Positions 1,588 to 19,895 of a stretch of DNA of 21,203 bases are shown here, piece by piece (the stretch's first letter is position 1; each line of letters starts with the position of its first letter). The notes below the pieces were generated by a model, which was not told where the DNA came from, did not search any database, and saw only the letters and a program-made list of their open reading frames with translations. Location of the stretch: IMG/VR virus record IMGVR_UViG_3300007512_001563, positions 1 to 21,203 of that record; one strand, given 5' to 3'. Origin of the DNA: a virus. The translations under genes and the position numbers were made by a program.

Positions 1588-2808
1588 ATGTCAACTTTTT
1601 ATACCAACACAAACCACGAACCAACCAGAACATTATTCATGAAGCGTTTAATGTATAGAATGCAGTTAGCGGGACAGGCCCGGAATCTTGTGGATTTCAA
1701 CTTAGGAGAGAAGTATCTCTTTGGCCGCGTCGACCGATTCTTTGTTCCCATTCAAACCCGCAATCCCCGCGAAGCCGCTTTGTTCGCCGGCTTTAAAGGC
1801 TTTCGTTCTAGCGCCGGCGCTTCGCAGAGTTATGAAGCTCTTTCCTTCGTGGTAGATGCTTTTGAACAAATGGCGTTGGAGTTTGAGAAATGCGCCGCCA
1901 AGGGCATTATTGACACGCAGGATTCTTTCTTGAGCAGCCTGCAGGTTCACAAAGCACACGTTAGTCATGAGTCTTTGTACGCCGATTACTTAGATATTTA
2001 TTTAAACACCTTGAAAGATCTCTTCGATGCTGATAAGATCAAGGTAAGAGACTTTAAAGAGTTCATGCAACATCTGGTGGTATATCTTGAAAGAACATTG
2101 CACACGATCCCCTTCACCAAGCCTGCATATATCAAGAGCCGACGCTGCAGCATTATGACGAGTGGTTTGGCTATTGAGATAGCAGATCTGGATCCTGTCA
2201 ACGACGATGAAAAGATAAATCAATTTGTGAACAGCAAGAACTGGGCTTTTTATGTTAACGCATGCAACGACTACGGCTTTATGGTAGATCAATTCGTCCC
2301 TTGGCGCATTGTATGTGATATTGATGCGCCTGGAATGTTAGAACTCTCGGCTAAATATTATTCTCCTACAACCGCCGCAGTCCTTCACAATAATTATGAA
2401 CATTCGCACAATAAATATTTTGAAAACTTTAGTTCGATTCTCCTCCGTTTATATAACATGGTAAAGTACGGCTCGTTTTATAGCTATGAAGAGTGTAATG
2501 GAAAAGTCCGTCGCAAAATGGTTATTCCCTTGTCTTATACATTAGAAGAGATACAAGCAGAATTTAATGAAGCTTATTTTTTACGCATATATTGTCATCT
2601 CCGTTTTCTTGAGGAAGAATCTGAATTTTCTATCAATGAGCGCGAGATGCTTATCAACGATTGCTTGCGGGCTGCCGAACAGATAGGAGTACGAGCCTCG
2701 TTGCTAATATTTGAAAGAATTTTAAATAAAACATTTGACTATCGGGGCTCAGCGAGTTATATTGAAAGATATAGACGTTTGGTGCGGGATGATATTTCAG
2801 GCTATTGA
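1588..2808 (+). CDS. Probable phage structural protein, unknown function
   Basis: A 406-residue soluble protein with no signal peptide or membrane segment. The ATG at 1588 has a GGAGAAG ribosome site at 1572-1578 that overlaps the end of the upstream structural gene, which suggests translational coupling. It is rich in aromatic and charged residues, with long helices around 115-165 and 285-385. A segment near residues 220-250 (NSKNWAFYVNACNDYGFMVD, then a PWRIVCDID stretch) looks like a conserved core. I recognise no enzyme motif and no exonuclease residues, which matters because a polymerase follows directly. Its last 20 bases overlap the polymerase gene. The virion-protein assignment rests mainly on its position behind the hub-like gene. 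Confidence 0.5.
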   Translation: MSTFYTNTNHEPTRTLFMKRLMYRMQLAGQARNLVDFNLGEKYLFGRVDRFFVPIQTRNPREAALFAGFKGFRSSAGASQSYEALSFVVDAFEQMALEFEKCAAKGIIDTQDSFLSSLQVHKAHVSHESLYADYLDIYLNTLKDLFDADKIKVRDFKEFMQHLVVYLERTLHTIPFTKPAYIKSRRCSIMTSGLAIEIADLDPVNDDEKINQFVNSKNWAFYVNACNDYGFMVDQFVPWRIVCDIDAPGMLELSAKYYSPTTAAVLHNNYEHSHNKYFENFSSILLRLYNMVKYGSFYSYEECNGKVRRKMVIPLSYTLEEIQAEFNEAYFLRIYCHLRFLEEESEFSINEREMLINDCLRAAEQIGVRASLLIFERILNKTFDYRGSASYIERYRRLVRDDISGY

Positions 2809-3973
2809 TGACAAATCTGAATGCATAGGCATTTATACAGACGGGAAACTTTATTATGAAAACTTTCCGGAGAATCTAACCAAGACTTGGAAATATTCTG
2901 GGTCGTTGGTCGACACCACCACAGACTACGCATGGTTGTACGCAGAGGGGCTAGCATTGAATCAGGTATGCCCGCCGGAACTCCAAGACGTTCTCAAGAG
3001 AGCACAAAAACGGTTGAGGGCTTACATTAAATCTTTTCAGATTGCCAAAGTAAGCATGCGAGACCACTGCATTTTTGATCTGGTCCCGGAAGATTTTCTT
3101 AAAGAGTTTTGCGAGATCAAAAACAAAATTACGGAGTATGTTTTTGAGACGCACACAAAACCTGAATGCTACGAACACTTGCACAATATTGAAAAGCTTT
3201 TATATAAGATACGCTATCAGCCTTTGAACTTAAACAACGAGGGGTGTAAAAATCTACACTTATCCTCTCGTGATTCTAGAAGAGCCAAGCTGTTGTTAAG
3301 TGGGCCCAATTATATAGATTATAATTTATTTGGAACTGTTACAGGAAGGCTCACCACCTATTCACAAAGTTTTCCGGTACTCACTACGCAAAAAGAATTT
3401 AGAAAATTGTTAAAACCTCACAATGACTGGTTTTTGTCATTGGATTATAACGCTGCGGAAGTACGAACCTTTATCGCGTTGGCTGGAGAGAAACAACCAC
3501 AAGAAGACGTGCACGAGTGGCATATCAAAAACCTTATTCAAGGAGAGATAGATCGTGACGACGCCAAGACTCAATTTTTTGCATGGCTTTACAACCCGGA
3601 TGCAGCGAACAGTGAATTTAGTATTTATCATCGCGAAAAAGTTCTTGACAAATGGTATGATAAAGGGTATATTAAGACAGTGTTTAAGCGCCGTATACAA
3701 GTTGAACCGCGCAAGGCTTTAAACTATTTGATTCAAAGCACTACAGCCGATTTAGTCCTGGAACGTGCCTGCGCAGTAGACGTATTCTTAGAAGGAAAGA
3801 AGTCGTTTATCTCTCACATTGTGCATGATGAAGTGGTGATCGATCTCGCAGACGAAGACCGCCCACTAGTCCCCCAGCTAAAAGAAATTTTTGCTAATAA
3901 TCTTTTGGACACCTTTATGGTTAACTTAAATTGTGGAAAGAATTATTATGAACTTCAAGAGTTAAAGATATGA
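2789..3973 (+). CDS. polA: Family A DNA polymerase, short form without a 3'-5' exonuclease domain
   Basis: Template-directed DNA synthesis. All three palm/finger motifs are present. Motif A is DYNAAE (D219, E224). The O-helix keeps R256, K260, F264 and Y268 in the canonical R-x3-K-x3-F-x3-Y spacing, with Asn instead of the usual Gly after the Tyr. Motif C is HDE at 346-348. TVTGRLTT before motif A and NYLIQSTTADL before motif C also match the family. The protein is only 394 residues. The roughly 170 residues before the polymerase core are too short for, and show no motifs of, a DEDD exonuclease or 5' nuclease. I chose the ATG at 2789; an upstream in-frame TTG at 2735 would lengthen the overlap with the preceding gene and has no clear ribosome site. 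The stop overlaps the next start as ATGA. It shares the window with a complete DnaE, so it may act in repair, gap filling or primer processing rather than bulk replication. Confidence 0.9.
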   Translation: MIFQAIDDKSECIGIYTDGKLYYENFPENLTKTWKYSGSLVDTTTDYAWLYAEGLALNQVCPPELQDVLKRAQKRLRAYIKSFQIAKVSMRDHCIFDLVPEDFLKEFCEIKNKITEYVFETHTKPECYEHLHNIEKLLYKIRYQPLNLNNEGCKNLHLSSRDSRRAKLLLSGPNYIDYNLFGTVTGRLTTYSQSFPVLTTQKEFRKLLKPHNDWFLSLDYNAAEVRTFIALAGEKQPQEDVHEWHIKNLIQGEIDRDDAKTQFFAWLYNPDAANSEFSIYHREKVLDKWYDKGYIKTVFKRRIQVEPRKALNYLIQSTTADLVLERACAVDVFLEGKKSFISHIVHDEVVIDLADEDRPLVPQLKEIFANNLLDTFMVNLNCGKNYYELQELKI

Positions 3974-4830
3974 TTTCAGTAATTGGAATAGGGAATGCCG
4001 CATCGGCTATTGCAGAAAAGTTTTCTGGTATGGAGAACTATGAAGTTTATTCGCTAAACACCAACGTGGCCCGCAATAGTAAATTTAAAATTAAGCTCAA
4101 GAGGCTTGGCGACCCCGAAGCTTATGAGGAAAACATTCCTAATTTAGAGAAAGTGTTCGCCAATATAAGAGAACGCGTCCAGGTATTTGTTATGGGCTCA
4201 TCGATGAGTTCTAATTATACCCTAGGAATTCTAGAGCAGATCAAAGATAAAAAAATAGATTTATTTTATATCCGCCCCGACATCGAGTTATTGACCGGGA
4301 CTCCCCAGCTTTTAGAACGCGTCACTTTCGGGGTGCTCCAGGAGTATGCACGTTCGGGATTGTTTAGTTCGATTACGTTAATATCTAATCTAAAACTAGA
4401 AGAAGCCTTGGGCGAAGTGCCTATTAAAAACTATTATGAAATGCTGAATGAGTTTATCTTTTCCACTATTCATTATTTAAACTACTTTGAATTTAGCGAG
4501 CCAGAAATTGGCCAAGTCTCCAAGCCGGCAGCTATCCATCGCATTAGAACCTTGGGAATGTTGGACGTTAATTCTTTAGAAGAAAAATGGCTTTTTGACC
4601 TTGACAACCCCCGTGAGTTGTGTTATTATATATGTATAAACGAAGAGAGATTGGCCACCGAAGGCGGCTTACACAAACAGTTGGTTGATAAGCTTAAAGA
4701 AAAGCCTAAAAATACTTTTCGCAAGATTTCTTATGCAATTTATGAAACAGAACATGATGACTTTGGGTTCTGCGTTGCCCACACTAACGCAATACAAGAA
4801 AATACTCTTGACAAAGAAGAGCAAGAGTGA
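3970..4830 (+). CDS. Divergent FtsZ/tubulin-like protein lacking the GTPase signature
   Basis: The 286-residue protein follows the FtsZ fold order. It starts with a Rossmann-like VIGIGNAASAIAEKF segment, then YSLNTN where FtsZ has AVNTD. Later comes VQVFVMGSSMSSNYT where FtsZ has the GGGTGTG phosphate loop. IDLFYIRPDIELL and then LISNLKLEEALG match the FtsZ stretch ending IPNDKLLKVLG, followed by a helix like the FtsZ core helix H7 region. The glycine-rich signature loop is replaced by GSSMSSN, and the synergy-loop N-x-D catalytic residues are not evident, so GTP hydrolysis is doubtful. The C-terminal third is unlike FtsZ. It overlaps the polymerase stop by 4 bases and precedes ssb, so it is expressed with replication genes. 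A role as scaffold, partner of host FtsZ, or DNA-positioning factor is inference. An unrelated dinucleotide-binding protein is the main alternative. Confidence 0.5.
   Translation: MISVIGIGNAASAIAEKFSGMENYEVYSLNTNVARNSKFKIKLKRLGDPEAYEENIPNLEKVFANIRERVQVFVMGSSMSSNYTLGILEQIKDKKIDLFYIRPDIELLTGTPQLLERVTFGVLQEYARSGLFSSITLISNLKLEEALGEVPIKNYYEMLNEFIFSTIHYLNYFEFSEPEIGQVSKPAAIHRIRTLGMLDVNSLEEKWLFDLDNPRELCYYICINEERLATEGGLHKQLVDKLKEKPKNTFRKISYAIYETEHDDFGFCVAHTNAIQENTLDKEEQE
4601..4629 (+). promoter_or_regulatory. Candidate extended -10 sigma-70 promoter inside the FtsZ-like gene
   Basis: TTGACA at 4601-4606, a 17-base spacer, and TATTAT at 4624-4629 preceded by TGT. It lies about 235 bases upstream of the ssb start and would add a second promoter for ssb. 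Being inside a coding region it could be coincidental, but it matches the other promoters of the window in spacing and in the TGN element. Confidence 0.45.
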
Positions 4831-4862: not shown

Positions 4863-5630
4863 ATGTCAATTGATATGGAGCTTATGCGCCGCAAGCTCGC
4901 AACTTTGCGCGGCGAAAACAAGGGTGATACTAACTCTGTTTGGTTTAAACCAGACGAGGGAGACACCGACATTCGGATCATTCCAACTAACGACGGAGAT
5001 CCTTTGAAGGAAATGTTCTTTCACTATAACGTTGGCGAACACCGAGGAGGAATCCTCTGTCCCAAGCGCAACTATGGAGAAGAATGTCCTATTTGTGAAT
5101 TCGCTTCTTCGCTTTGGCGAGAAGGAAGTGATAGCAACGATGAGGAAAGCAAGAAGCTTGCAAAGGCACTCTTTGTACGCACTCGCTACTTCTCTCCCGT
5201 TGTGGTTCGTGGTCGAGAAGATGAGGGAATCAAGGTGTACGGTTATGGTAAGACCGCATACGAACTTCTTCTTGGCTACATTTTAGACCCGGAATATGGG
5301 GACGTCACAGACGTTACGGAGGGTACAGATATTACTCTTACCTACACCAAGCCCACCAAGCCCGGTGCCTATCCCCAGACGAGCCTGAAAATGCGTCGTA
5401 ATACCTCAACATTGCTTGAGGATACTGAGGCCATCCCCGCCCTCCTTGATGGCATGCCGGAATTTGACGGTCTATTCGAACGTCTTAGCCCGGAGCAGGT
5501 CGGCGCTATTCTCGATGAACAACTTGCCGGAGACGGATCCGCTGAGTCACGTTCACGCGAGACTACCAAGTATAGTACGACTGAAACTACTGACGTGGAT
5601 CGTGCATTTAATGAACTGGTAGCAGGCTAG
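4863..5630 (+). CDS. ssb: T4 gp32-like single-stranded DNA-binding protein
   Basis: Coats and protects single-stranded DNA at the fork and organises replication and recombination proteins. The 255-residue protein has the gp32 layout. A basic N-terminal segment (RRKLATLR, about 9-16) corresponds to the cooperativity region. It is followed by an OB-fold core with a zinc site: H54, C66, C75 and C78 (the last two in CPIC) reproduce the His-Cys-Cys-Cys order of T4 gp32. A Ser/Thr-rich linker leads to a C-terminal tail containing DVDRAFNELV, like the partner-binding tail of gp32 relatives although only mildly acidic. The start has an AAGGAG site 10 bases upstream and its own strong promoter. A hairpin follows the stop, so it may also be made as a monocistronic message. 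Confidence 0.9.
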   Translation: MSIDMELMRRKLATLRGENKGDTNSVWFKPDEGDTDIRIIPTNDGDPLKEMFFHYNVGEHRGGILCPKRNYGEECPICEFASSLWREGSDSNDEESKKLAKALFVRTRYFSPVVVRGREDEGIKVYGYGKTAYELLLGYILDPEYGDVTDVTEGTDITLTYTKPTKPGAYPQTSLKMRRNTSTLLEDTEAIPALLDGMPEFDGLFERLSPEQVGAILDEQLAGDGSAESRSRETTKYSTTETTDVDRAFNELVAG

Positions 5631-5695: not shown

Positions 5696-6880
5696 ATGGG
5701 TACCAATGTTATACCTTTAAAGAAAAATGATGATGTTGCTGGTTTGATTAGTAATGAAGACACAATCGTTCGCAAAGCAATGTCCCTAGGCCATAAAGAT
5801 CCGAGAGTGGATGAGAAATGTCACGCAAAACTGTTACTCGTCCCAATCGGAGATAAAATCTATCGAAGATTTATAACTGGCATGATTGAGTTATCACAGG
5901 ATGACATTAGCGAGGCGCAAATACGACTTAAGGTGTCTGATGAAAAATATTGTAGAGAAGAACTAGGCCCATTAATTGAGAAAAATGGACTCGAATATCT
6001 TCCATTTGTTAGCCATGGCACCCAGAATATTTGGAACATGGAGACAGGTCATCACCGAAGTTTTTATTTGCTGCATCAGCGACGTGATGAAAGCTTTTTT
6101 GCATTTGTGGTTAGTAATGAATTTTATGAAGCTCTAAAGGATGGCACGTATGGCAAGCCAGTGTCGAATAGTTATGCTAAGGTAAAGGGCCGTATTCAAT
6201 GTAACCCCCCACCCGCAGGAAACTTCTACAAGCTCACTGATATTTTTATCCAGCTAGCCGGCCTAAGAAAGGCGGACCCAACTTTTGGAGGCTTGGTTCC
6301 ATCCGGCGAGTTTCCAACAAGAGAAGAATTCGATGATATTATGAACGATATTCATCCCAAGCAATTTCTCTATAAGGCAACCAGAACAAAGATTCGTAAC
6401 CAATGGATAAGAAGTGGAACAGATGCAAACTCAAAAGTCAAACCAGTTACATTTGCTGATAAGACTAATGATTTGGTTAAAAATGGATATGATCCTGGCG
6501 TTACTATGGGCCGAAAAAATAAGCAAAAAAGAAAGAAATTTTTAGAGCATTTTGACGAGGATAAGAAAACATATCTTGCTTTTACATCCACTAACGGCAA
6601 TAACTTTAGAGCAAATATTATTACTTCTTTAATTGAAAGTCACCACGATGGAACTCTCGTAGGCGACTCCTCTTACGAGATAGTTGTTTATTGTGACATA
6701 TATAATGTTAAAGAGAGTTTGACCTTGTTAGAGCAAGACAGAAATAGTTTTGTTGAAGAGGTAAAAAAGTGGAATGATATCTTGAAAAATACTTGTCGAT
6801 TGAAGTTTGGTTTTTCTAAGATTATTTTTCCAAAACAGTTGACGATTCCGTCTGATACTGGTAAAGTTATAAAGCTTTAA
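5696..6880 (+). CDS. Protein with a ParB/sulfiredoxin-like GHHR motif, unknown function
   Basis: A 394-residue soluble protein. Residues about 85-140 resemble the N-terminal ParB/Srx fold: REELGPLIEKNGLEYLPFVS, then an ETGHHR motif (G118-R121), then a strand ending FFAFVV. This matches the ParB plan of a helix, 'sI..nGl..P..V', a G-x-R nucleotide-binding turn, and a second strand. The C-terminal part has a very basic segment (RKNKQKRKKF, about 272-281) that could bind nucleic acid. The gene looks more AT-rich in synonymous positions than its neighbours and stands between a terminator and recA, so it may be a later insertion. The start is ATG at 5696 with GGAG at 5687-5690. Chromosome-partition ParB function is not implied. 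The assignment is by motif reading only. Confidence 0.4.
   Translation: MGTNVIPLKKNDDVAGLISNEDTIVRKAMSLGHKDPRVDEKCHAKLLLVPIGDKIYRRFITGMIELSQDDISEAQIRLKVSDEKYCREELGPLIEKNGLEYLPFVSHGTQNIWNMETGHHRSFYLLHQRRDESFFAFVVSNEFYEALKDGTYGKPVSNSYAKVKGRIQCNPPPAGNFYKLTDIFIQLAGLRKADPTFGGLVPSGEFPTREEFDDIMNDIHPKQFLYKATRTKIRNQWIRSGTDANSKVKPVTFADKTNDLVKNGYDPGVTMGRKNKQKRKKFLEHFDEDKKTYLAFTSTNGNNFRANIITSLIESHHDGTLVGDSSYEIVVYCDIYNVKESLTLLEQDRNSFVEEVKKWNDILKNTCRLKFGFSKIIFPKQLTIPSDTGKVIKL
6839..6867 (+). promoter_or_regulatory. Candidate promoter for recA
   Basis: TTGACG at 6839-6844, a 17-base spacer, and TAAAGT at 6862-6867 preceded by TGG. It ends 32 bases before the recA start. The hexamers are weaker than those before ssb, but spacing and the TGN element are the same. 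Confidence 0.4.
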
Positions 6881-6899: not shown

Positions 6900-8048
6900 A
6901 TGCCAAGAAAGGCAAAACAAACCAAGGCTGGTCGTGTATCTATGCAAGATCTCATGACCTTGGTAAATAAAAAAGCGGGACGTAATGTTGCGCACGATTT
7001 AACGGGTGAGAATCCCACCGAAGTCAAAGAATGGATCCCCACAGGATCGCGTTGGCTTGATAGTATTATATGCAAGGGACACATCGGCGGCATTCCTGTC
7101 GGCAAGGTTACAGAGATTGCAGGACTCACCTCCACAGGGAAGTCTTACATGGCCGCACAGATTGCAGCCAACGCCCAGAAAATGGATAAGCTCGTCGTAT
7201 ATTTTGATTCCGAGTCAGCCATCGACCCTGCTTTTTTGGAGGCAGCAGGCTGCGACCTAGAGCGCTTAATGTACGTTCAGGCATCGTCTGTCGAGTTTGT
7301 TCTTGAGACAATTGAAGAACTTCTAGGAGCAACCGACGAGAAGCTGCTATTGATTTGGGATTCTCTCGCGTTCACTCCCGCAGTGTCGGATGTGGAAGGC
7401 GACTTTAATCCGCAATCCTCGATGGCAATGAAGGCGCGCATCCTTGCGAAGGGAATGTCAAAGCTGACCCTTCCTATCGCAGACAAGCAGGCAACCTTCT
7501 TGGTTCTTAACCAGCTTAAGACTAACATTACTAGTGGGCCCATGGCTCATATCACTGCCATGACTACACCCTACATGACACCCGGCGGAAAAGCAATGCA
7601 CTATTCTTATTCGCTGCGCATCTGGCTCACCGGACGCAAGGCCAAGAGTGCTTTCGTGATGGATGATAAAGGTTTCCGTATTGGATCTGAAGTTAAAGTT
7701 AGACTAGAGAAGTCTAGGTTCGGAACCCAAGGAAGAAACTGTGCCTTCCGTATTATGTGGGGTACCGATGAGGTTGGCATCCGCGATGAAGAAAGCTGGT
7801 TCGATGCTATCAAGACATCCGAATACTTGACTTCCAAGGGTGCATGGTATACTTTAGAGACTGCAGACGGCTACACAAAAAAGTTCCAGCCCTCTAAGTG
7901 GTCCGAGATTATTAAATCAGATAATGAATTTAGAGAACAGGTCATACGTCTGATGGATGAAGAAGTCATTCAACGATTTGATCGGCGCGAAGGAACTGCC
8001 GACGATTTTTACGAACCTTATGAAGAACAGGAGATTTCAAATGAATAA
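6900..8048 (+). CDS. recA: RecA/UvsX-like recombinase
   Basis: ATP-dependent strand-exchange protein for recombination-dependent replication and double-strand-break repair. The 382 residues include a Walker A loop GLTSTGKS (75-82), a probable catalytic glutamate in FDSES (E105), Walker B LLLIWDS (149-155) and a loop segment around FLVLNQLKTNI where RecA family members sense ATP. The order and size are closer to phage UvsX proteins than to host RecA. The Lys/Arg-rich N-terminus and acidic C-terminus (YEPYEEQEISNE) are typical of filament regulation by charge. A strong AGGAGGG site at 6889-6895 fixes the start. The last 8 bases overlap the next gene. It works with the gp32-like SSB two genes upstream. 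Confidence 0.9.
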   Translation: MPRKAKQTKAGRVSMQDLMTLVNKKAGRNVAHDLTGENPTEVKEWIPTGSRWLDSIICKGHIGGIPVGKVTEIAGLTSTGKSYMAAQIAANAQKMDKLVVYFDSESAIDPAFLEAAGCDLERLMYVQASSVEFVLETIEELLGATDEKLLLIWDSLAFTPAVSDVEGDFNPQSSMAMKARILAKGMSKLTLPIADKQATFLVLNQLKTNITSGPMAHITAMTTPYMTPGGKAMHYSYSLRIWLTGRKAKSAFVMDDKGFRIGSEVKVRLEKSRFGTQGRNCAFRIMWGTDEVGIRDEESWFDAIKTSEYLTSKGAWYTLETADGYTKKFQPSKWSEIIKSDNEFREQVIRLMDEEVIQRFDRREGTADDFYEPYEEQEISNE

Positions 8049-8361
8049 GATTATAATGGCGAGCATTGCATTGCTGACGAGTGCTTGCACCGTACATGCG
8101 CATCCTCACACAGCCCCGCCACCGGCAGCAGTCCATCGCCCACCGCCCCCACGCCCAGCACCCCAAGCACACCCTCAACCAGTTAAGGTTAAAGCCTGGG
8201 TTTGGGTTCAAGGCCATTACAACCCCCGAGGCGTTTGGATTCATGGGTCATGGGAATTGCGTACCGTACCTCGTCATATGATTAATCGACATCCGCATAC
8301 TTACGTGCGCCATGTCCGAGGCCGCGGCCGACCGGCACCACCTCCACGCAGATATCGTTAA
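8041..8361 (+). CDS. Small exported proline-rich WXXGXW protein, possible lipoprotein
   Basis: The 106-residue protein starts at ATG 8041 with a CAGGAGA site just upstream; longer in-frame readings would run back inside recA. It has a typical signal peptide (MNKIIMASIALLTSA, then C15). LLTSAC can act as a lipobox, or cleavage could follow VHA at 20. A Pro/His-rich linker (about 21-50) leads to two aromatic repeats, WVQGHY and WIHGSW, the WXXGXW type of small bacterial periplasmic proteins, then a basic His/Arg-rich tail. It overlaps recA by 8 bases (ATGAATAA). An exported protein inside a replication operon is out of place. A role at the host envelope, such as superinfection exclusion, is a guess from context. 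Confidence 0.65.
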   Translation: MNKIIMASIALLTSACTVHAHPHTAPPPAAVHRPPPPRPAPQAHPQPVKVKAWVWVQGHYNPRGVWIHGSWELRTVPRHMINRHPHTYVRHVRGRGRPAPPPRRYR

Positions 8362-10846: not shown

Positions 10847-12814
10847 ATGAGAACATTAGACAACATTCGTAGATTCAGATTATCCGACACCTTCTTGGAG
10901 CCTTATAAAATTAAAGAAGTTCCCTGGGGTCCGTTGGGATATGTCACCTTTAAGCGCACGTACTCGCGTCGTCTTAGCGAATTCGATTCTGATGCCACAG
11001 GATCCGAGGAGTGGTGGCAGACATGTAAACGTGTCATTGAAGGAATGTTTGATATGCAGAAGGCCCATGTGTTCCACCTAGGTCTCGAATGGAATGATGC
11101 AAAGGCCCAACGTACAGCCAAAGAAGCCTATGATCGTTTGTTCAACCTCAAGTGGACACCCCCTGGCCGCGGCTTGTGGATGATGGGTACGAAGTTTGTA
11201 GAAGAAAGAACCGCCGCAGGATTATTTAATTGTGCTTTTCGATCCACTAAAGATTTGTCCACCAAGGGGGGATATTTGTTTGCATGGATGATGGATGCTT
11301 TGATGTTGGGGATTGGAGTAGGGTTTGATACCGAAGGCGCCGGCACCCTAACTATTAAAGAGCCCCAGTATACCAACGACACTCTCGTTATTGATGACTC
11401 TCGGGAAGGATGGGTAGATTCTGTACACCTTCTTTTAGATGGCTTTTTCTTTGGAGGAAAGGTGCCTAAGTTTGATTATTCTATTATTCGTGCCGAGGGA
11501 GCACCCATTCATGGGTTTGGTGGTACATCGAGTGGAGCAGGCCCGCTTAAAGAGTTGCATAAGAATTTAATTGCTCTCTATGGAGAGCGCTTGGATGAGA
11601 CTATCACATCCGTAGATATTGTAGATACTGAAAATCTTATTGGTCGCTGTGTGGTGGCTGGTAATGTGCGGCGCTCCGCTGCGTTGGCTATGGGGCGCCA
11701 CGATGATAAACATTATCTCGAAATGAAAAACGATGATGAAAGGCTGTACCACCACAGGTGGGGCTCCAACAACTCCTTTAATGCGGTCGTGGGAATGGAC
11801 TATGCATGGCATGCCCAGCAGAGCCAGAAGAAAGGAGAGCCGGGGTACATTTGGTTAGAAAATGCGCGCACTCGTGGGCGCTTTAAGGATGGCGTGCGTT
11901 TAGACGATGTTAGTGTCGCCGGTTTCAATCCGTGCGTGGAGCAGCAGCTAGAAGACGCAGAGCTTTGTTGTCTTGTAGAGACTTTCCCTGCCAAGCATGA
12001 AAATCTCGATGATTATTTGAGAACATTAAAGATCGCCTACCTCTATGGCAAGACAATTACTCTTTCCAACACTCACTGGCCCGAAACAAACGCCAAGATG
12101 CTTAAGAACCGACGTATTGGATTGTCCCAGTCGGGCGTTGTCCAGGCCTTCACTAAGCATGGCCGCCGCCAGATGTATCAATGGAGCGACACGGCCTACC
12201 AGACTATTAATGAACTAGATGAAGAATATTCTAACTGGCTATGCATTCCGAAATCTGTACGCACCACATCCATTAAGCCCTCGGGGACGGTCTCGCTTCT
12301 TAATGGATCAACTCCAGGTATTCATTTTCCGGAAGCCGAATATTATATTCGCCGTATTCGTTTCTCTCAAGACTCTAAAATTCTTGACACACTTAAGAAG
12401 TCAGGCTATAATGTAGAAAAGGATAAGTATTCTCCGCGCACGATGGTGGTAGAGTTTCCTGTATACGAACGCCACTTTACTAAAGGAAAACAAGACGTGG
12501 GAATGTGGGAGCAACTAGAAATCGCCGCGCAGTATCAACACTACTGGGCAGACAATTCGGTTTCCATTACAGTGACTTTCAAAGAAGAAGAGGCGTCCCA
12601 AATTAAAGATGCTCTCGAAATGTATGAAACGCGCTTGAAGGCTGTCTCTTTCCTCAAGTATGAGGAAACAGGGTATGAACAGGCCCCCTATGAGGCTATT
12701 AGCCAAGAGACTTATGAAAAAATGATAAGTGCCATCACTCCGATTAGTCGCATTCATGACGAACAGGGTGGAAACGGCACCAAATTCTGTACAAATGACA
12801 CATGCACAATTTAG
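10847..12814 (+). CDS. nrdJ: Adenosylcobalamin-dependent class II ribonucleotide reductase, monomeric RTPR type
   Basis: Reduces ribonucleotides, probably triphosphates, to deoxyribonucleotides using a cobalamin-generated thiyl radical, without needing oxygen. Key residues are C129 in GLFNCAF (half of the redox pair), C363 and E365 in FNPCVEQQLE (thiyl radical site), and C374 in ELCCLVE (the other redox cysteine). IKPSGTVSLL and PGIHF also match the active site. The C-terminus CTNDTC (C648 and C653) is the thioredoxin-reducible cysteine pair. The 655 residues compare with 739 in the Lactobacillus enzyme; no ATP cone is evident. It follows the helicase after 5 bases and feeds the replisome. 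B12 must come from the host. The ribosome site is AAGGAA at 10831-10836. Confidence 0.9.
   Translation: MRTLDNIRRFRLSDTFLEPYKIKEVPWGPLGYVTFKRTYSRRLSEFDSDATGSEEWWQTCKRVIEGMFDMQKAHVFHLGLEWNDAKAQRTAKEAYDRLFNLKWTPPGRGLWMMGTKFVEERTAAGLFNCAFRSTKDLSTKGGYLFAWMMDALMLGIGVGFDTEGAGTLTIKEPQYTNDTLVIDDSREGWVDSVHLLLDGFFFGGKVPKFDYSIIRAEGAPIHGFGGTSSGAGPLKELHKNLIALYGERLDETITSVDIVDTENLIGRCVVAGNVRRSAALAMGRHDDKHYLEMKNDDERLYHHRWGSNNSFNAVVGMDYAWHAQQSQKKGEPGYIWLENARTRGRFKDGVRLDDVSVAGFNPCVEQQLEDAELCCLVETFPAKHENLDDYLRTLKIAYLYGKTITLSNTHWPETNAKMLKNRRIGLSQSGVVQAFTKHGRRQMYQWSDTAYQTINELDEEYSNWLCIPKSVRTTSIKPSGTVSLLNGSTPGIHFPEAEYYIRRIRFSQDSKILDTLKKSGYNVEKDKYSPRTMVVEFPVYERHFTKGKQDVGMWEQLEIAAQYQHYWADNSVSITVTFKEEEASQIKDALEMYETRLKAVSFLKYEETGYEQAPYEAISQETYEKMISAITPISRIHDEQGGNGTKFCTNDTCTI
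12384..12412 (+). promoter_or_regulatory. Perfect-consensus sigma-70 promoter inside nrdJ
   Basis: TTGACA at 12384-12389, exactly 17 bases, then TATAAT at 12407-12412. No TGN is present. It lies 412 bases upstream of the groES-like start and could drive the groES-endolysin segment. It is intragenic, but a full 12-base consensus at ideal spacing is unlikely by chance in 21 kb. Confidence 0.5.
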
Positions 12815-12824: not shown

Positions 12825-13109
12825 TTGTTTAACCCAGTGAATCGATATGTTTCCATTCGACTCCCCGCACCCCCCGAGAACATGACTGAAAGTGGTATCA
12901 TGTTGCCGGCCGACTTTAAGCCCAAAGAAGAGCGTTATATTACAGCGGAAATTATTAGTTGGGCTAGCGATGTACGCTTCAAGGAAAATCTAGAAGTGGG
13001 GAGCCAAATCGTAGTAGATAAAACAATGGTTGAGGAAATTAATATTAAAAACCAGACGATTAATGTTGTGTTAGATAATTATATTATAGGAATTGTCGGG
13101 AAAGAATAG
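12825..13109 (+). CDS. GroES / T4 gp31-like co-chaperonin
   Basis: A lid for the host GroEL cage, used by phages to fold large virion proteins. The 94-residue product starts VNRYVSIRLP, matching the first GroES strand. A flexible loop follows, PPENMTESGIMLP (about 16-28), equivalent to the GroEL-binding mobile loop that ends in a hydrophobic Gly-Ile-X-Leu tripeptide. After that come TAEIISWA and LEVGSQIVVDK, like the GroES V-G-D-x-V strand, and a last strand NYIIGIV. The length is that of GroES (97) rather than the slightly longer gp31 (111). It uses TTG as start, supported by AGGAGGTG. It directly follows the reductase gene. Confidence 0.75.
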   Translation: MFNPVNRYVSIRLPAPPENMTESGIMLPADFKPKEERYITAEIISWASDVRFKENLEVGSQIVVDKTMVEEINIKNQTINVVLDNYIIGIVGKE

Positions 13110-13124
13110 CGAGGTCGGAATGGG

Positions 13125-14081
13125 ATGCCAATCGATAAAAACTTTTATAATGAATCGTCTGCAGCTAATTTAGGCTGGGATCCAACATGGTTTGGTGAGA
13201 AATTTTATGATGATAAGTTGATCAGAGCAGTGAAGAAGTGGCAACGTGATCATTCTCTTACTCCCGATGGTCTCGTAGGGCCCATGACTTTTCGTCGCAT
13301 TTGGACCGAGCGTCAAGTAGACATTGATGAACACAAGCCCGACACCCCTACTTATTCCAATTATATCGTTTTTAATGGCAACTTTATTCCTATTGAGTGG
13401 GACAAGGTAGTGCTTTGGTCGGAGAGCGGTGGCCTTAAAGCAAATCCAGGAACACACTATGATTACAGCGGCCGGCCAGCACGCGCCATTCGCTACTTTG
13501 TAAATCACTGGGACGTGTGCCTCAGTTCCGCCTCCTGTCAAAAAGTTTTAAACAATCGCGGTATTTCGGTGCACTTTCTCATCGATAATGATGGAACAAT
13601 CTACCAAACCATTGATATGCAGCATGGCTGCTGGCACGCAGGCAGCGAGCGCGCAAATCGTGCTTCGGTGGGAGTGGAAATTTCAAATGCATATTATCCT
13701 AAATATCAAGAGTGGTATGTAAGAAACGGTCATGGAGAGAGGCCCATCTTAGAAGGGGTACGGTGCCAAAGCCAGGAACTCGAATCTTTTTTGGGGTTCT
13801 ATCCGGTACAAATCCGAGCGCTCAAACAATTGTGGAAAGCTATTCATAATGGCTTAGACATTCCCTATGCGGCCCCCCTCAATCAATTTGGTAATACCGA
13901 CAACAACTATGCCCAGCATGTGAAGTACGGAGATTTCAAAGGCTTTGCCAGTCACTATCATGTGTCCAAAACCAAGAAAGACTGCGCGGGACTAGACATT
14001 AAAGCGCTTCTAGAAGAAGTAGAAGAAGAGGAGGCTAGTGGATACAGTAGCGCGAGCGAAGTCTGCGCAGATGATTCATGA
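13125..14081 (+). CDS. Endolysin: peptidoglycan-binding domain plus zinc N-acetylmuramoyl-L-alanine amidase
   Basis: Cuts the bond between muramic acid and the peptide stem to lyse the host. Residues about 28-60 (KLIRAVKKWQRDHSL, then PDGLVGPMTF) form a type 1 peptidoglycan-binding domain at the N-terminus. The amidase_2/PGRP-type domain covers about 120-290, with zinc ligands H128 (FVNHWD), H279 (SHYHV) and C287 (KKDC). The 8-residue H-C spacing matches T7 lysozyme. VGVEIS (E185) and HFLIDNDGTIYQ are also family features. No signal peptide is seen, so a holin from elsewhere is probably needed. The tail (EEVEEEE, then Ser-rich) is very acidic. An endolysin among replication genes is unusual. 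It ends overlapping the next gene. Confidence 0.88.
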   Translation: MPIDKNFYNESSAANLGWDPTWFGEKFYDDKLIRAVKKWQRDHSLTPDGLVGPMTFRRIWTERQVDIDEHKPDTPTYSNYIVFNGNFIPIEWDKVVLWSESGGLKANPGTHYDYSGRPARAIRYFVNHWDVCLSSASCQKVLNNRGISVHFLIDNDGTIYQTIDMQHGCWHAGSERANRASVGVEISNAYYPKYQEWYVRNGHGERPILEGVRCQSQELESFLGFYPVQIRALKQLWKAIHNGLDIPYAAPLNQFGNTDNNYAQHVKYGDFKGFASHYHVSKTKKDCAGLDIKALLEEVEEEEASGYSSASEVCADDS

Positions 14082-14952
14082 GTATGAAGAGATAGTAATC
14101 GGGAGTACTCTAACGGCAGTTTTATACGCCTTCCATAATAAACTCCCCATTTTTTTTACCGATCCCGAGCCGCCCTTTCGGTTTGATTATCTGAACCCCG
14201 ACTTAGATATGTCCTGTATTCATTTGGATAACAGCGCACGCCGTCTCACCACTCACAACGGAAACATTAACGTTGCAGCTCCCAAAATGTTAGTGTGGGA
14301 GAGGTTATTATTTCTTACAGCACTCGCCGGCCGCGCCCCTCTGAGTACCCTCTGCGAGAGTTTGCGATACAACGGAGAAACCTTAGTCTGCTCTAATGAA
14401 TACTCAAAAATAGCCGAGATCAAATTTGAAAAGGCGTTTTATTTTGGTGACCCCCATTGCACAGGATTGGTAAAGCAAAAAAGAGTTGCCAACCCCCTAT
14501 ACATATGTTATGATTGGATAGCGTTCAATCGCGGAGGCAAGCATGAAATCGATTTCATTGAAACACCCGATGATTTTGTCAAACACATCTGGTTTTATCC
14601 TACAGATCGCATTGACGGGAATTCTCTGGTCAAGGATGCTTGTGTAGTCTCCCATCTCACTGAAGCCGAACTTTTAGAATTTGACCATAGTCAAACGATG
14701 GTACGCTTTAAAATGCTGGCTGAGATGGAGAGCCGAGGAATGAAAGGACTGTTTAATGGCTACTCGCCCACGGGTACCCCCAAATATTACAAATTTAGAA
14801 CGACTATCATTGGCCGCGAGAGAAGCCCGCAACTGGCACGCCCACAGCCATCAGTCGAAGCGGTCGAGGTGCCGGAGATTGATGAAGAAGATTTACTCCA
14901 GACTTTACCGTCAGCTTGCTTGGGATACAATAGATTTTTAGATAACTTATGA
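14071..14952 (+). CDS. Unknown protein, possible Rossmann-like N-terminus
   Basis: A 293-residue protein that I do not recognise. The start chosen is ATG 14071, 11 bases inside the endolysin gene; a GTG at 14038 would add 11 residues. The N-terminus EYEEIVIGSTLTAVLYAFH followed by a hydrophobic strand (LPIFFTD) resembles the first beta-alpha-beta of flavin- or nucleotide-binding proteins, but the glycine pattern is incomplete. The middle is rich in aromatic residues and cysteines (for example C46, C95, C106), and an acidic segment (VPEIDEEDLLQ) lies near the C-terminus. The stop overlaps the next start as ATGA, so this and the nucleotidyltransferase-like gene are translationally coupled and probably act together. 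Confidence 0.6.
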   Translation: MIHEYEEIVIGSTLTAVLYAFHNKLPIFFTDPEPPFRFDYLNPDLDMSCIHLDNSARRLTTHNGNINVAAPKMLVWERLLFLTALAGRAPLSTLCESLRYNGETLVCSNEYSKIAEIKFEKAFYFGDPHCTGLVKQKRVANPLYICYDWIAFNRGGKHEIDFIETPDDFVKHIWFYPTDRIDGNSLVKDACVVSHLTEAELLEFDHSQTMVRFKMLAEMESRGMKGLFNGYSPTGTPKYYKFRTTIIGRERSPQLARPQPSVEAVEVPEIDEEDLLQTLPSACLGYNRFLDNL

Positions 14953-15851
14953 GTGATGGCAGACACATCCACTTGGCAGGTATCATCCCACTCGCTGGCC
15001 TCCAAACTGATTTTGATTTACAGATACCGTCTTGTTTGATGCCGGTGGACCCCGGTTTCACGGCTGTACAAAAAGCCGTGTTCGAGTGTGCAGTAGCGGG
15101 ATGTCAAACCATTTGGATTGTGGCTAACGATGACCTTGCGCCCATCATTAAAAAGGTAGTAGGGGAGTGGACCTATGACCCCGTGTATTTTTATCGTCAG
15201 CATAGCGTTTTCCCTAGTGAACATCGCAAAGAGATTCCTATATATTATGTGCCTATCCACCCCAAAGATCGTGACCGCCGAGACTCATATGGCTGGTCTG
15301 CGCTATACGGCGTCTATTCAGCCTGGAGAGTGGCCAACATGATATCTAAATGGGTGATACCGCATAAGTATTTTGTCACATTTCCGATGAATGCCTATAA
15401 TGTGTATTCGCTGAGAAATTTCCGCGGCAAAATTTCAGATTTTGAAAATAACTTTTTTTTAACCCACGAAGGGAAAACCGTCAAAGATAATGTTCCTCTT
15501 CCTTTCACCATGTTCGGTGACGACTATATTCATTGTCGACGACATGTCAATCAAACTACTACCCGCGAATATATAAACCCCGGTCCTGATGAAAAATATC
15601 CACAAAAAAAATTGCCACTTTTAGAAAGGTGGTCTGCACGCCACTTTGCTTTTGATACCATCTTTGCGAAAGTGGGTGATCAAGGGGCCCACAGAGAGGA
15701 GCTTGATTGGTACTATGATATCTCAAAATGGCAACAATATCAACTATTTATGGGTTCTGAAAACTTTATACAAAAACCATCAAATAGCTTGACAAAGGCC
15801 CATAAACATGTTAAATTACCATATAGAGAGGGAGAATTAGATGACGATTAA
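14949..15851 (+). CDS. Nucleotidyltransferase-like (GT-A / NDP-sugar pyrophosphorylase fold) protein
   Basis: The 300-residue product opens with IIPLAGLQTDF, where sugar-nucleotide pyrophosphorylases have their glycine-rich nucleotide loop, then LMPVDPGFTAVQKAVFECAV and AGCQTIWIVANDD (about 30-62). This is the classic order of 'K-P-l-x-x-i-g', a helix ending in 'AG', and a 'i-V' strand. GWSALYGVYSAWRV (115-128) corresponds in position to the G-x-x-x-A-l helix of this fold. The arginine of a typical GxGxR loop is missing, so the chemistry is uncertain. Possible roles are sugar-nucleotide synthesis or modification of DNA or virion glycans, all inferred. It is coupled to the gene before it (ATGA), and its last 11 bases overlap dnaE, whose promoter lies within it. 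Confidence 0.5.
   Translation: MSDGRHIHLAGIIPLAGLQTDFDLQIPSCLMPVDPGFTAVQKAVFECAVAGCQTIWIVANDDLAPIIKKVVGEWTYDPVYFYRQHSVFPSEHRKEIPIYYVPIHPKDRDRRDSYGWSALYGVYSAWRVANMISKWVIPHKYFVTFPMNAYNVYSLRNFRGKISDFENNFFLTHEGKTVKDNVPLPFTMFGDDYIHCRRHVNQTTTREYINPGPDEKYPQKKLPLLERWSARHFAFDTIFAKVGDQGAHREELDWYYDISKWQQYQLFMGSENFIQKPSNSLTKAHKHVKLPYREGELDDD
15789..15817 (+). promoter_or_regulatory. Extended -10 promoter for dnaE
   Basis: TTGACA at 15789-15794, a 17-base spacer, and TAAATT at 15812-15817 with TGT before it. It lies at the 3' end of the preceding gene and 23 bases before the dnaE start, followed by a GAGGGAG ribosome site at 15828-15834. Confidence 0.7.
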
Positions 15852-18800
15852 ATTCGTAGGGCTACACGCCCACAGTGTAGCAGGATCCATTTTTGATGCA
15901 ATCGGGTATCCCGATGCGCATATGGACTTTGCTTTTGAGAACGGGAGCGATGCGTTAGCGCTCACCGACCATGGAAACATGAACGGACTAGCGGGACAGG
16001 TTCTGCACGCCAAGAAGATGCAGGCAGAGGGGAAGGACTTTAAACCGATTTTCGGCGTCGAGGCCTACTTTATTCCTTCCATTGAGGAGTGGCGAGAGGA
16101 ATATGAAAGAGCCATGGCAGACAAGAAGCGCGCCCGCAGCGCCAAGAAGGACGCCGCTTCAGGCGCCACTGTCGAAGACGAAACAGACAGCAAGAAGGTA
16201 CAAGGCCTTCTGCGCCGGCGCCGACACCTTATTCTGTTGGCACAAAACCAAACAGGGCTGAACAACCTTTTCAAACTCGTTTCGGAGAGTTATCAAAGTG
16301 AGAATTTCTATCGCTATCCTCGCATGGACTATGCACTGCTTGAGAAGTATGGCGAAGGAGTCATCGCTGCATCCGCCTGTCTAGGCGGAGTCTATGCTGG
16401 GAACTACTGGGAGAACGGTACTTACGACGAAGAAGGCAACCGCACCGGTGTTGATCGTGAAGCGGCCCTCGATGATATGCGGGAGACAACACGTCGCATG
16501 CAAGCAGTCTTTGGAGATCGCTGGTATGGCGAGCTACAGTGGAACAACATTAAAGAGCAACACGAACTTAACCAGCTCATTATTCAAATTTCTGAAGAGT
16601 TTAATATGAAGCTGATTTCCACAGCCGACAGTCACTACCCGAACCAGACCGCATGGAAGGATAGAGAGCTATACAAACGCCTAGGATGGCTTGGAAAAGG
16701 AACTCCATCCTGGGGTGAGGGTGCAGAATTTCCCGAGGGTGTAGAGGAGATAGGATACGAATTGTATCCCAAGAACGGCGACCAAATGTGGGAGAGTTAT
16801 CAGAATTACTGCGAAACTGCTGGTTTTGATTATGATGACGAATTGGTGATGAACAGCATTACCGAAACCTATCACATCGCACACCAACGCATCGAAAGCT
16901 TTTTTCCCGATACCACGGTGCGTCTCCCTGATTTTGTGGTGCCCGCCGGCACAACCGCCACGCAAGCATTAGTTAACTATGCACTCGAAGGCCTGCGCCA
17001 AAAAGGGCTTAACGAAAACCCAGAATACTTGGCGAGACTAAAGCGAGAACTAGATGTAATTGATGATCGTGGGTTTTCCAAGTATTTCTTGACCATGAAG
17101 GCTATTGCTGACGAAGCCACCAAAGGAATGCTCGCTGGCCCGGGCCGAGGGTCAGCCGCGGGTTCTCTTGTGGCCTATACACTGGGCATCACTCAAGTCG
17201 ACCCCATTAAGTACGGCTTGCTGTTTTCACGCTTTCTGCGCTCCGACGCAACCGACTATCCGGATATCGATTATGATGTATCCGATAGTATGGAACTCAA
17301 AGAGAAGTTGGTGGAGATGTGGGGAGAAGATTGCGTAGCTCCCATTTCTAACTGGAACACCTTGCAATTGAGATCGCTCATCAAAGACATCTCAAAGCTT
17401 TATGGTATCCCCTTTACAGAGGTCAATAACGTAACAAGCGTTATGATTCGAGAGGCTACGCCAGAGGCTAAAAAGAAGCACGGGATTAAAGCCGGCGTCT
17501 ACGCACCCACCTGGGAAGAGGTGATGGAGTATTCGGTCACCCTCCAGAAGTTTTTGCAGACTTACCCCGAAGTCAAAGCCCGCGTTGAAGGGCTGGTCGG
17601 ACAGGTGCGGTCGTGCAGCCGTCATGCAGGCGGCGTTGTGATTGCAGAAGATCTAGATCGTCATATGCCTCTCATTAATTCGGGAGGGGTACGCCAGTCG
17701 CCATGGAGCGAAGGACAGAACGTGCGTCACTTGGAGCCCATGGGCTTCATTAAGTTTGATCTATTGGGACTCTCGACCTTAAAGATGATGGAAGGGTGCA
17801 TTGAGCATATCTTGCGCCGTCATCATGGCATCGAGAATCCTACGTTCGAAGATGTACTGACATTTTACAATGAACACATCCATCCAGATGTCTTGGATTT
17901 TGATGATCAAGAGGTATATGAGAATGTCTTTCATGAGGGCAAGTGGGCCGGCGTCTTCCAGTTTACTGAACAGGGGGCCCAAGGCTTTTGTACCAGAGCC
18001 AAGCCGACAAGCCTTATCGATATCTCAGCGGTAACTTCAATCTTCCGTCCTGGTCCCCTTTCGGCTGGAGTCGATGCTGACTATGTAGAAGCAAAGAACC
18101 ATCCGCAATATGTATCGTATTTGTCGGAAGAAGCGAGAGAAATTACCGAAGAAACATTTGGCTTTCTCATCTTCCAAGAGCAGATCGCACTCCTGGCACA
18201 CAAGCTAGGCGCGCTGACTCTTGACGAGGGCAACATGCTCCGCAAGGTTTTGACCAAGAAAGGTACAGGCAAAGGCGGCATTAAGACTAAGCTTCGTGTT
18301 AAATTTGTTGATGGGTGTGTTTCCAACGGGATCGCTCGGGATGCAGCCGAAGCGCTGTGGGATAAGTTTGAATATTTCTCCGGCTATGGCTTTAACAAGT
18401 CGCATGCCGTTAGCTATAGTATTATCTCTTATCAGTGTGCGTGGCTATGGAATTATTATCCTTCTGAGTGGATGGCCGCCTTCTTGGACAAAGAGCCCGA
18501 GAGCAGAAAAGAAAAAGCCATCAACATCGCAAAGAAGTACGGCTTTCAAATTGAGCCATTGGATATCAACAAGTCAGGCACCGTCTGGGAGATTAGTGCC
18601 GATGGCAAGACCCTTATTCAGCCGCTGACTTCTATTAAGGGACTCGGGATGGCCGCAATCGAACAGATTCTAAACCATCGACCTTTTAAGAACGCAGAAG
18701 ACTTGTTATTTCGAGAGGGAGTCTCCTACAGCAAGTTTAACAAGAAGGCGCTGGACGCGCTGTGTCGTGGTGGTGCCTTGGACGGCATCATGGATGATCG

Positions 18801-19281
18801 CTTTACCGGCCGAAAGCATTTCTGGTCAGCGTGTGTGGTGGACCGACCCAAGACCTTGAAGAAGTTGGTCGAGAACATGGAGAAATATAAGCCCGAAGGA
18901 GACTTTACTGAAGAAGAGATCATTCAATTTAAGACAGATCTCACCGGAATCTTTCCTATCAATCTTGTTATCAATACAGAGACGATTGAGAAGCTACAAG
19001 ACAAGCTCGTGCCTCCCATCTCTGAATTTGATCCGCATATTCAATTGTGTTGGTTTATCCCCAGAAAGATTGTTCCACGCAAAACTAAGAATGGAAAACT
19101 CTATTGGATTATAGAAGTAATTGATAGTAATAATGAACTGACGCGCATTCGCTGTTGGGGAGTCCGACCGGATAGGGATACGATTTTTGTTAATCGACCC
19201 TATATGTCTCGGTTAGAATATGATCCCGACTGGGGCTTTTCAACTCGATCTATTCGGCACAATTTTCGATTGCTGGGGTAA
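15841..19281 (+). CDS. dnaE: DNA polymerase III alpha subunit (family C, DnaE)
   Basis: Replicative polymerase of bacterial type, 1146 residues, essentially full length against E. coli DnaE (1160). The N-terminal PHP domain (about 1-270) keeps all nine metal ligands of proofreading-active DnaE proteins: H9, H11, D19, H44, E74, H129, C180, D263 and H265. A charged low-complexity insert lies at about 92-122. The polymerase core has GPGRGSAAGSLVAY, catalytic D475 and D477 (PDIDYD) and D640 (IKFDLLGL). FRPGPLSAG and GYGFNKSHAVSYS follow, then a helix-hairpin-helix region near IKGLGMAAIEQIL and an OB fold near the C-terminus (about 1060-1105). No clear QADMF-like clamp motif was seen, and no clamp, loader or epsilon gene is in the window. 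It has its own promoter and is in one run with the clpP-like gene. Confidence 0.95.
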   Translation: MTIKFVGLHAHSVAGSIFDAIGYPDAHMDFAFENGSDALALTDHGNMNGLAGQVLHAKKMQAEGKDFKPIFGVEAYFIPSIEEWREEYERAMADKKRARSAKKDAASGATVEDETDSKKVQGLLRRRRHLILLAQNQTGLNNLFKLVSESYQSENFYRYPRMDYALLEKYGEGVIAASACLGGVYAGNYWENGTYDEEGNRTGVDREAALDDMRETTRRMQAVFGDRWYGELQWNNIKEQHELNQLIIQISEEFNMKLISTADSHYPNQTAWKDRELYKRLGWLGKGTPSWGEGAEFPEGVEEIGYELYPKNGDQMWESYQNYCETAGFDYDDELVMNSITETYHIAHQRIESFFPDTTVRLPDFVVPAGTTATQALVNYALEGLRQKGLNENPEYLARLKRELDVIDDRGFSKYFLTMKAIADEATKGMLAGPGRGSAAGSLVAYTLGITQVDPIKYGLLFSRFLRSDATDYPDIDYDVSDSMELKEKLVEMWGEDCVAPISNWNTLQLRSLIKDISKLYGIPFTEVNNVTSVMIREATPEAKKKHGIKAGVYAPTWEEVMEYSVTLQKFLQTYPEVKARVEGLVGQVRSCSRHAGGVVIAEDLDRHMPLINSGGVRQSPWSEGQNVRHLEPMGFIKFDLLGLSTLKMMEGCIEHILRRHHGIENPTFEDVLTFYNEHIHPDVLDFDDQEVYENVFHEGKWAGVFQFTEQGAQGFCTRAKPTSLIDISAVTSIFRPGPLSAGVDADYVEAKNHPQYVSYLSEEAREITEETFGFLIFQEQIALLAHKLGALTLDEGNMLRKVLTKKGTGKGGIKTKLRVKFVDGCVSNGIARDAAEALWDKFEYFSGYGFNKSHAVSYSIISYQCAWLWNYYPSEWMAAFLDKEPESRKEKAINIAKKYGFQIEPLDINKSGTVWEISADGKTLIQPLTSIKGLGMAAIEQILNHRPFKNAEDLLFREGVSYSKFNKKALDALCRGGALDGIMDDRFTGRKHFWSACVVDRPKTLKKLVENMEKYKPEGDFTEEEIIQFKTDLTGIFPINLVINTETIEKLQDKLVPPISEFDPHIQLCWFIPRKIVPRKTKNGKLYWIIEVIDSNNELTRIRCWGVRPDRDTIFVNRPYMSRLEYDPDWGFSTRSIRHNFRLLG

Positions 19282-19289
19282 TTAGTAAT

Positions 19290-19895
19290 ATGAACATCAT
19301 CACCAACTTCAGCCCCTTGTTAAAAGACAAAGAATTTGTTGATGATTTGCCTATTGTCATTCGGGTTAAAAAGTTTGATGAGGTTGCAGCCAAAGACTTC
19401 TCAGAGAAAATGAGCAAAGCCCACAATACGGGCCAACCCGTAGTGCCTATCATCATTGATAGCTACGGAGGGCAAGTCTATAGTTTGATGTCGATGATTT
19501 CCGACATCACTCATGCACGCATTTCCGTCGCCACCATAGTGCAAGGAAAGGCCATGTCATGCGGCGCCATCCTTTTTAGTTTCGGCAAAGACGGAATGCG
19601 ATACATGGACCCAGACGCAACTTTAATGATTCATGATGTATCTTCCATGACTATTGGAAAAGTAGAAGAGATTAAAGCAGACGCAGAAGAGACCGAGAGA
19701 TTAAATCAAAAAGTTTATAAGATGATGGCCAAAAACTGTGGCCATCACGAAGATTATTTTTTGGATATCATTCATGAAAAAGGCCACGCCGACTGGTTTT
19801 TAGAAGGTGACGAGTGCTTAAAGCACAATCTCACCAACCACCTACACATCCCTACATTAAAGATCGAAGCTCGCGTTAAGTTTGATTTTAAGTAG
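19290..19895 (+). CDS. ClpP-like serine protease (family S14)
   Basis: The 201-residue protein has the ClpP fold signatures: IIIDSYGGQVYS (about 54-65, the D/N-S-x-G-G oxyanion strand), nucleophile S90 in GKAMSCGA, H115 in DATLMIHDVSS, and D168 in HADWFLEGDE, where ClpP has its third catalytic residue. The length matches ClpP. The hydrophobic ATPase-docking residues cannot be judged by eye. It could plug into host ClpX/ClpA-type unfoldases, act alone, or mature a capsid as some phage S14 proteases do; the distance from head genes in this window argues against the last but does not exclude it. It begins 8 bases after dnaE with only a weak GGGG site, so translation is probably coupled. Confidence 0.8.
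   Translation: MNIITNFSPLLKDKEFVDDLPIVIRVKKFDEVAAKDFSEKMSKAHNTGQPVVPIIIDSYGGQVYSLMSMISDITHARISVATIVQGKAMSCGAILFSFGKDGMRYMDPDATLMIHDVSSMTIGKVEEIKADAEETERLNQKVYKMMAKNCGHHEDYFLDIIHEKGHADWFLEGDECLKHNLTNHLHIPTLKIEARVKFDFK

Follow-up and report, generated by a model that had tools for sequence, protein, structure and literature searches.

Proteins of the tubulin/FtsZ superfamily are known as GTP-driven filaments, and in FtsZ the guanine base is contacted by N165, F182, and N186, the tubulin equivalents being N206, Y224, and N228. The GTP-binding motif of FtsZ is GGGTG[T/S]G and its hydrolysis motif is NxDxx[D/E] (PMC12583498), and the docking contacts described for a staphylococcal FtsZ include Asn166, Phe183, and Asp187 (PMC10020519). 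In phages, the PhuZ of phiKZ assembles into canonical protofilaments and still has the catalytic aspartate of T7 (PMC3678025). Surveys of huge and jumbo phages take up homologues of tubulin, FtsZ, or PhuZ (PMC7824862, PMC7162821), and the passages found there describe no degenerate tubulin family linked to replication. In archaea, FtsZ from Nitrosopumilus maritimus (Nmar_1262) lacks the T4 motif, reading AGKAGSA there, has no T7 loop, and did not polymerize in fission yeast (PMC3684127).

The window analyzed here, that is, the whole stretch of DNA under study, is a 21.2-kb virus fragment that carries on its plus strand, at 3970..4830, an ORF beginning with ATG and encoding a 286-aa protein (P0001). 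It is referred to as pseudo-tubulin, a provisional name for a frequent, unannotated gene of uncultured large phages. HMMER searches gave no significant match to this protein in Pfam, PHROGs, or PDB sequences, and no convincing match in Pfam or PHROGs for the more than 450 family members from IMG/VR. The relatives retrieved from IMG/VR amounted to 66 with a one-sequence query and 456 with an alignment query, and to 52 in one scan and at least 587 in another when divergent members were used as seeds, with members as low as ~30% identity to the window protein. By contrast, tblastn with three members, divergent ones included, returned no relative from 50,697 phage records; none was found either among prokaryotes sampled at one genome per species (84,980 species), and therefore no host link can be drawn for pseudo-tubulin. 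The family is not reported in the open-licence literature searched. Pseudo-tubulin founds a family not described before, present in hundreds of uncultured phages, and is under strong purifying selection, with dN/dS of ~0.06 (0.061, 0.069, and 0.067 in the three closest usable pairs, and 0.17 in a fourth).

An earlier interpretation of this stretch, based on its letters and reading frames (the sequence-only reading), had recognized the FtsZ core motifs in their usual order, and this is borne out, with VIGIG, LNTN, GSSMSSN, and LISNLKLEEALG all in register with E. coli FtsZ. It had also proposed that a high-probability match to the tubulin fold, with the T4 loop in register, would favor homology, and that a dinucleotide-binding fold or the lack of any tubulin match would speak against it; the former was obtained with AlphaFold models, Foldseek, and HHalign, and the latter was not seen among the matches listed. 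The first AlphaFold model, computed from 22 close sequences (pLDDT 75), had only FtsZ and TubZ among the 50 PDB matches listed by Foldseek, together with three significant viral matches, some of them annotated as FtsZ and cell-division protein. The second model (m083180e7bfe1), computed from an alignment of 88 sequences across the whole family (A5), reached a pLDDT of 93.9 and a pTM of 0.91, and all 50 of its listed PDB matches are FtsZ, TubZ, or CetZ aligned over their full length, the best being TubZ 4ei7 (E 1.5e-13), followed by FtsZ structures with TM of 0.65-0.72 and by CetZ. This model has the layout of the superfamily, with an N-terminal nucleotide-binding domain, the core helix H7, and a C-terminal domain, although AlphaFold cannot report on ligand binding or assembly of pseudo-tubulin.

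Profile comparisons point in the same direction. Against an FtsZ profile made of E. coli FtsZ, 10 FtsZ genes from plasmid records, 59 phage FtsZ-like sequences, and PhuZ, HHalign aligned the pseudo-tubulin family over residues 2-167, from S1/T1 to H7, with a probability of 91% and P 9e-7 (P 1e-4 with an earlier, less diverse family alignment). The reversed FtsZ profile gave P 0.19-0.42 and eight unrelated families from the same loci P 0.09-0.89, and since these controls remain at 0.09-0.9 against 9e-7, the similarity to FtsZ is not due to chance. Among single members, the commonest Pfam family is PF00091 (Tubulin), weakly matched, in 6 of the 88 and below the cut-off (best E 0.019). The spacing of the N...[YF]...N positions is 16/20 residues in pseudo-tubulin and 17/21 in E. 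coli FtsZ. Pseudo-tubulin is a member of the tubulin/FtsZ superfamily by fold and descent.

The nucleotide site is altered in a particular manner throughout the family, as judged from motif counts over the 88 representatives. In the T1-loop region (residues 5-14, IGIGNAASAI; 3982..4011, plus strand), G6 and G8, corresponding to G17 and G19 of E. coli FtsZ, are invariant (88/88), while the remainder of the loop reads NAAS in the window protein and QAGCN in divergent members, whose T1, GLGQAGCNIAD, recalls that of CetZ and tubulin. N30 is aligned to N43 of E. coli FtsZ in the profile-profile comparison, and the T3 gamma-phosphate loop is shortened. The T4 loop (residues 75-82; 4192..4215, plus strand) reads MGSSMSSN where FtsZ has GGGTG[T/S]G, with the register to E. 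coli FtsZ in the profile alignment being G76=G105, S77=G106, S78=G107, M79=T108, S80=G109, and S81=T110. The replacement of GGGTGTG by GSSMSSN was already pointed out in the sequence-only reading, and loss of the canonical loop extends to the whole family, as it occurs in 0/88 representatives; divergent members retain up to five glycines. Helix H7 occupies residues ~152-175 in the AlphaFold secondary structure (4423..4494, plus strand), and the segment where the catalytic T7 loop would lie (residues 176-192; 4495..4545, plus strand) is assigned by position after H7 only, since the profile alignment stops at that helix. The earlier remark that the catalytic N-x-D was not evident is correct, with N.[DE]..[DE] found after H7 in none of the 88 representatives; R191 is conserved at the expected T7 place in 83 of them.

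The positions facing the guanine base are kept, a feature overlooked in the sequence-only reading. N140 (4387..4389, plus strand), equivalent to the guanine-contacting N165 of FtsZ, is N in 86/88; position 156 (Y156, equivalent to F182) is aromatic (Y, F, H, or W) in 88/88; and N160 (equivalent to N186) is N in 87/88, the last two residues being located in H7. The phosphate and catalytic sides are thus lost and the guanine-base side retained, family-wide. Pseudo-tubulin is probably a pseudo-GTPase that may still bind a guanine ligand, because the T4 and T7 motifs are lost and N140, Y156, and N160 are nearly invariant. By analogy with PhuZ from phiKZ, which has GGASGS instead of GGGTGTG at this place, a T4 loop rich in Ser and Asn might have kept the ability to bind phosphates. 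The previous description of an inactive-looking FtsZ/tubulin homologue tied to a DNA polymerase therefore stands as regards degeneracy and the link to polA, but "inactive" is too strong a term, because the N/aromatic/N set for base binding is kept in nearly all 88 representatives and ligand binding may persist.

The genomic context of pseudo-tubulin is conserved as well. Upstream lies a family-A DNA polymerase gene, polA (2789..3973, plus strand; PF00476, E 8.7e-13), whose ORF is open from a TTG at 2735, the ATG at 2789 being the likelier start; downstream is the gene of a gp32-like single-strand DNA-binding protein, ssb (4863..5630, plus strand; PF08804, E 6.2e-16; phrog_1192, E 4e-21). The polA stop and the pseudo-tubulin start share an ATGA at 3970..3973 (plus strand), an overlap kept in 151 of 182 distinct pairs and likely to represent translational coupling of pseudo-tubulin to polA. 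In all the loci with both flanks (289/289), the nearest recognizable neighbors are polA upstream and ssb downstream, so that the overlap and the position before ssb noted in the sequence-only reading prove to be conserved features. The order polA, pseudo-tubulin, ssb persists at 30-40% identity, with additional genes between polA and pseudo-tubulin in some divergent loci (e.g., L378, L345), and it is followed after ssb by uvsX, a 5'-3' exonuclease, and a DnaB helicase. Gene order of this kind points to co-expression and not to contact, as unrelated genes also occur in phage operons.

Other genes of the window deserve mention in their own right. Two proteins without Pfam match, orfA (1-1581) and orfB (1588-2808), lie upstream of polA here and in most relatives, and likely belong to the same replication module. 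Besides the short family-A polymerase (~395-412 aa), the window encodes a second DNA polymerase, a DnaE-type Pol III alpha (15841-19281, 1146 aa) whose nearest counterpart in phage records is just ~30% identical, preceded by two consecutive 300-aa proteins without significant family match (14038-15851). Between ssb and uvsX, orfC (5696-6880) is missing in most relatives, yet two loci (L010 and L018) carry it at 99% identity while their polA and pseudo-tubulin are just 74-77% identical to those of the window; it looks like a recently exchanged segment. A small ORF rich in His and Pro, with a stretch resembling a signal peptide (7957-8361), overlaps uvsX at its end in a different reading frame. 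A 655-aa ribonucleotide reductase with an insertion domain of the B12-dependent type is encoded at 10847-12814, and host-like proteostasis genes, for a GroES-like co-chaperonin, a ClpP-like protease, and a protein with a weak DnaJ match, are found at 12825-13109, 19290-19895, and 19908-20597, respectively.

Some of these phages also possess, apart from pseudo-tubulin, a gene for an FtsZ-like protein. In the 203-kb record G001 this protein is 375 aa long, exceeds the cut-off of Pfam Tubulin (PF00091), and retains GVGGGGGK and GGGGGTGS. It belongs to a family of ~340-380 aa from large uncultured phages (L068:1318-2442, L195-L199, L208-L285), for which tblastn gave no match in phage records. Both this gene and pseudo-tubulin are present in nine records (G001, G002, G003, G005, G016, G026, G028, G029, and G049), the FtsZ-like gene being found by profile searches in G026, G028, G029, and G049. 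In five others, G050 (187 kb), G051 (159 kb), G052 (155 kb), G053, and G054, pseudo-tubulin is present and the FtsZ-like gene was not found, and the reverse is seen in G027 (235 kb), with the FtsZ-like gene and no detectable pseudo-tubulin, although the absence of either gene is weak evidence because the records may be incomplete. The PolA of G027 is only distantly similar, and other genes precede its ssb; in the place of pseudo-tubulin, near 147-149 kb (L438), two proteins of 200 and 242 aa are encoded before ssb. It follows from G027 that phage replication does not generally require pseudo-tubulin, and, because G050-G052 and G027 split the two genes, that pseudo-tubulin tracks this PolA/Ssb module and not the FtsZ-like gene. 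Tens of kb separate the two genes (at 112 kb and 155 kb in G001), and their families are similar by HHalign in the T1 region only (P 0.004). With similarity at the T1 level only, pseudo-tubulin as a recent degenerate copy of the phage FtsZ-like gene is rejected, and an obligatory pairing of the two is unsupported, given that no FtsZ-like gene was found in G050-G052.

Taken together, these data suggest that a tubulin relative was co-opted as a fixed component of viral DNA replication, and the explanation preferred here, with a probability of roughly one in two, is that pseudo-tubulin serves the phage replisome as a non-hydrolysing scaffold or adaptor with the tubulin fold. Under this explanation, pseudo-tubulin would no longer run an assembly cycle driven by GTP hydrolysis, because the interfacial GTPase site appears lost in both its halves. 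It would bind GDP, GTP, or another guanine ligand without turnover, or the pocket may serve as a structural core, while surfaces of the tubulin type would hold pseudo-tubulin, its partners, or both together in a fixed arrangement of scaffold or adaptor type. Produced along with PolA and Ssb, pseudo-tubulin would position the polymerase where the phage replicates, or tether it there; a role in the replisome is suggested because it is probably translated together with PolA and is encoded next to ssb. The link to replication is independent of the FtsZ-like gene, since none was found in G050, G051, and G052. The fuller version, in which a guanine-ligand-binding, non-hydrolysing scaffold is a constitutive component of the viral replisome, co-translated with polymerase and SSB and tethering them, is advanced only tentatively.

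Among the alternatives, the most radical is that the protein is not a tubulin at all, but a Rossmann dinucleotide-binding or Rossmann-like protein resembling FtsZ in its N-terminal half only. The scattered weak Pfam matches of single members to Rossmann families (F420_oxidored, TrkA_N, ApbA; best E ~0.002) would fit this idea, which is nevertheless extremely improbable: no Rossmann oxidoreductase occurs among the top 50 PDB matches of either model, those listed being full-length alignments to FtsZ, TubZ, or CetZ, Tubulin is the Pfam family hit most often by single members, though weakly, the FtsZ profile gives P 9e-7, and the N...[YF]...N spacing is tubulin-like. A Rossmann enzyme is thus rejected by the fold searches of both models. 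That pseudo-tubulin is a working, if unusual, GTPase cytoskeleton of the PhuZ/TubZ type, with rebuilt loops that still turn over GTP and filaments that position phage DNA, is a doubtful proposition; the retained guanine-base positions, the resemblance of the divergent T1 to the functional tubulin/CetZ loop, and the glycines left in divergent T4 loops speak for it, but neither the catalytic acid motif nor a canonical T4 occurs in any of the 88 representatives, and the gamma-phosphate loop is shortened.

Two further possibilities involve a partner FtsZ. Several phages encode small FtsZ inhibitors, unrelated in fold, and with this precedent pseudo-tubulin may be imagined as a poison of host FtsZ, a degenerate subunit that joins or caps host protofilaments by its one intact face and, through the missing catalytic loop, stops Z-ring turnover and blocks host division during replication. 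An FtsZ fold whose interfacial GTPase site is altered in each half speaks for such a poison, but host-takeover genes are usually variable and located elsewhere, whereas pseudo-tubulin is locked to polA and ssb in every locus with both flanks, is probably coupled to polA in translation, and is strongly conserved, and the inhibitors mentioned above are small and of another fold. Because its linkage to polA and ssb is fixed, the replication scaffold is favored over this poison, which is judged unlikely. The other possibility is a mixed filament with the phage FtsZ-like protein, comparable to alpha/beta tubulin, with pseudo-tubulin as the non-hydrolysing subunit. Nine records hold both proteins, and the GGGGGTGS of the 340-380-aa partner is intact; nevertheless, no FtsZ-like gene was found in G050-G054, which may be incomplete records, G027 shows the converse, and the two genes are distant and share little similarity, so that such a filament appears quite improbable. 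If the replication scaffold is the true role, it would represent the recruitment of a tubulin fold into DNA replication, outside the cytoskeleton and division, and a natural tubulin in which base binding is separated from GTP hydrolysis.

In comparison with known systems, pseudo-tubulin resembles FtsZ in fold over its whole length (TM 0.65-0.72) and in the alignment of the T1 glycines, N30, N140, Y156, and N160, but it lacks GGGTG[T/S]G and NxDxx[D/E], shares only 10-18% identity, is shorter, and resides in a replication operon. With PhuZ and the TubZ proteins of phages and plasmids it has in common the membership of the superfamily in a large phage, TubZ 4ei7 being its top structural match, and a weak profile match to PhuZ extends across T1-T4 in register; the window protein, however, has no match to any PHROG, the one of PhuZ included, and no PhuZ family appears among the 25 PHROG entries listed for the 88 members. 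The family also differs from PhuZ in having no T7 motif (0/88), and hence not its catalytic aspartate, and from PhuZ and TubZ in its location between polA and ssb instead of a partition or spindle context. Catalytically, then, pseudo-tubulin is not an FtsZ, a PhuZ, or a TubZ, because neither of the two defining motifs is found in it. The FtsZ-like protein of the same group of phages (L068:1318-2442) belongs to the same superfamily and is present in several of the same genomes, but it is the product of a separate gene with intact GVGGGGGK and GGGGGTGS and is similar to pseudo-tubulin in the T1 region only. A parallel in motif loss, as compared through its published description, is Nmar_1262, likewise a natural FtsZ homologue without both motifs, which differs in being a cellular archaeal gene.
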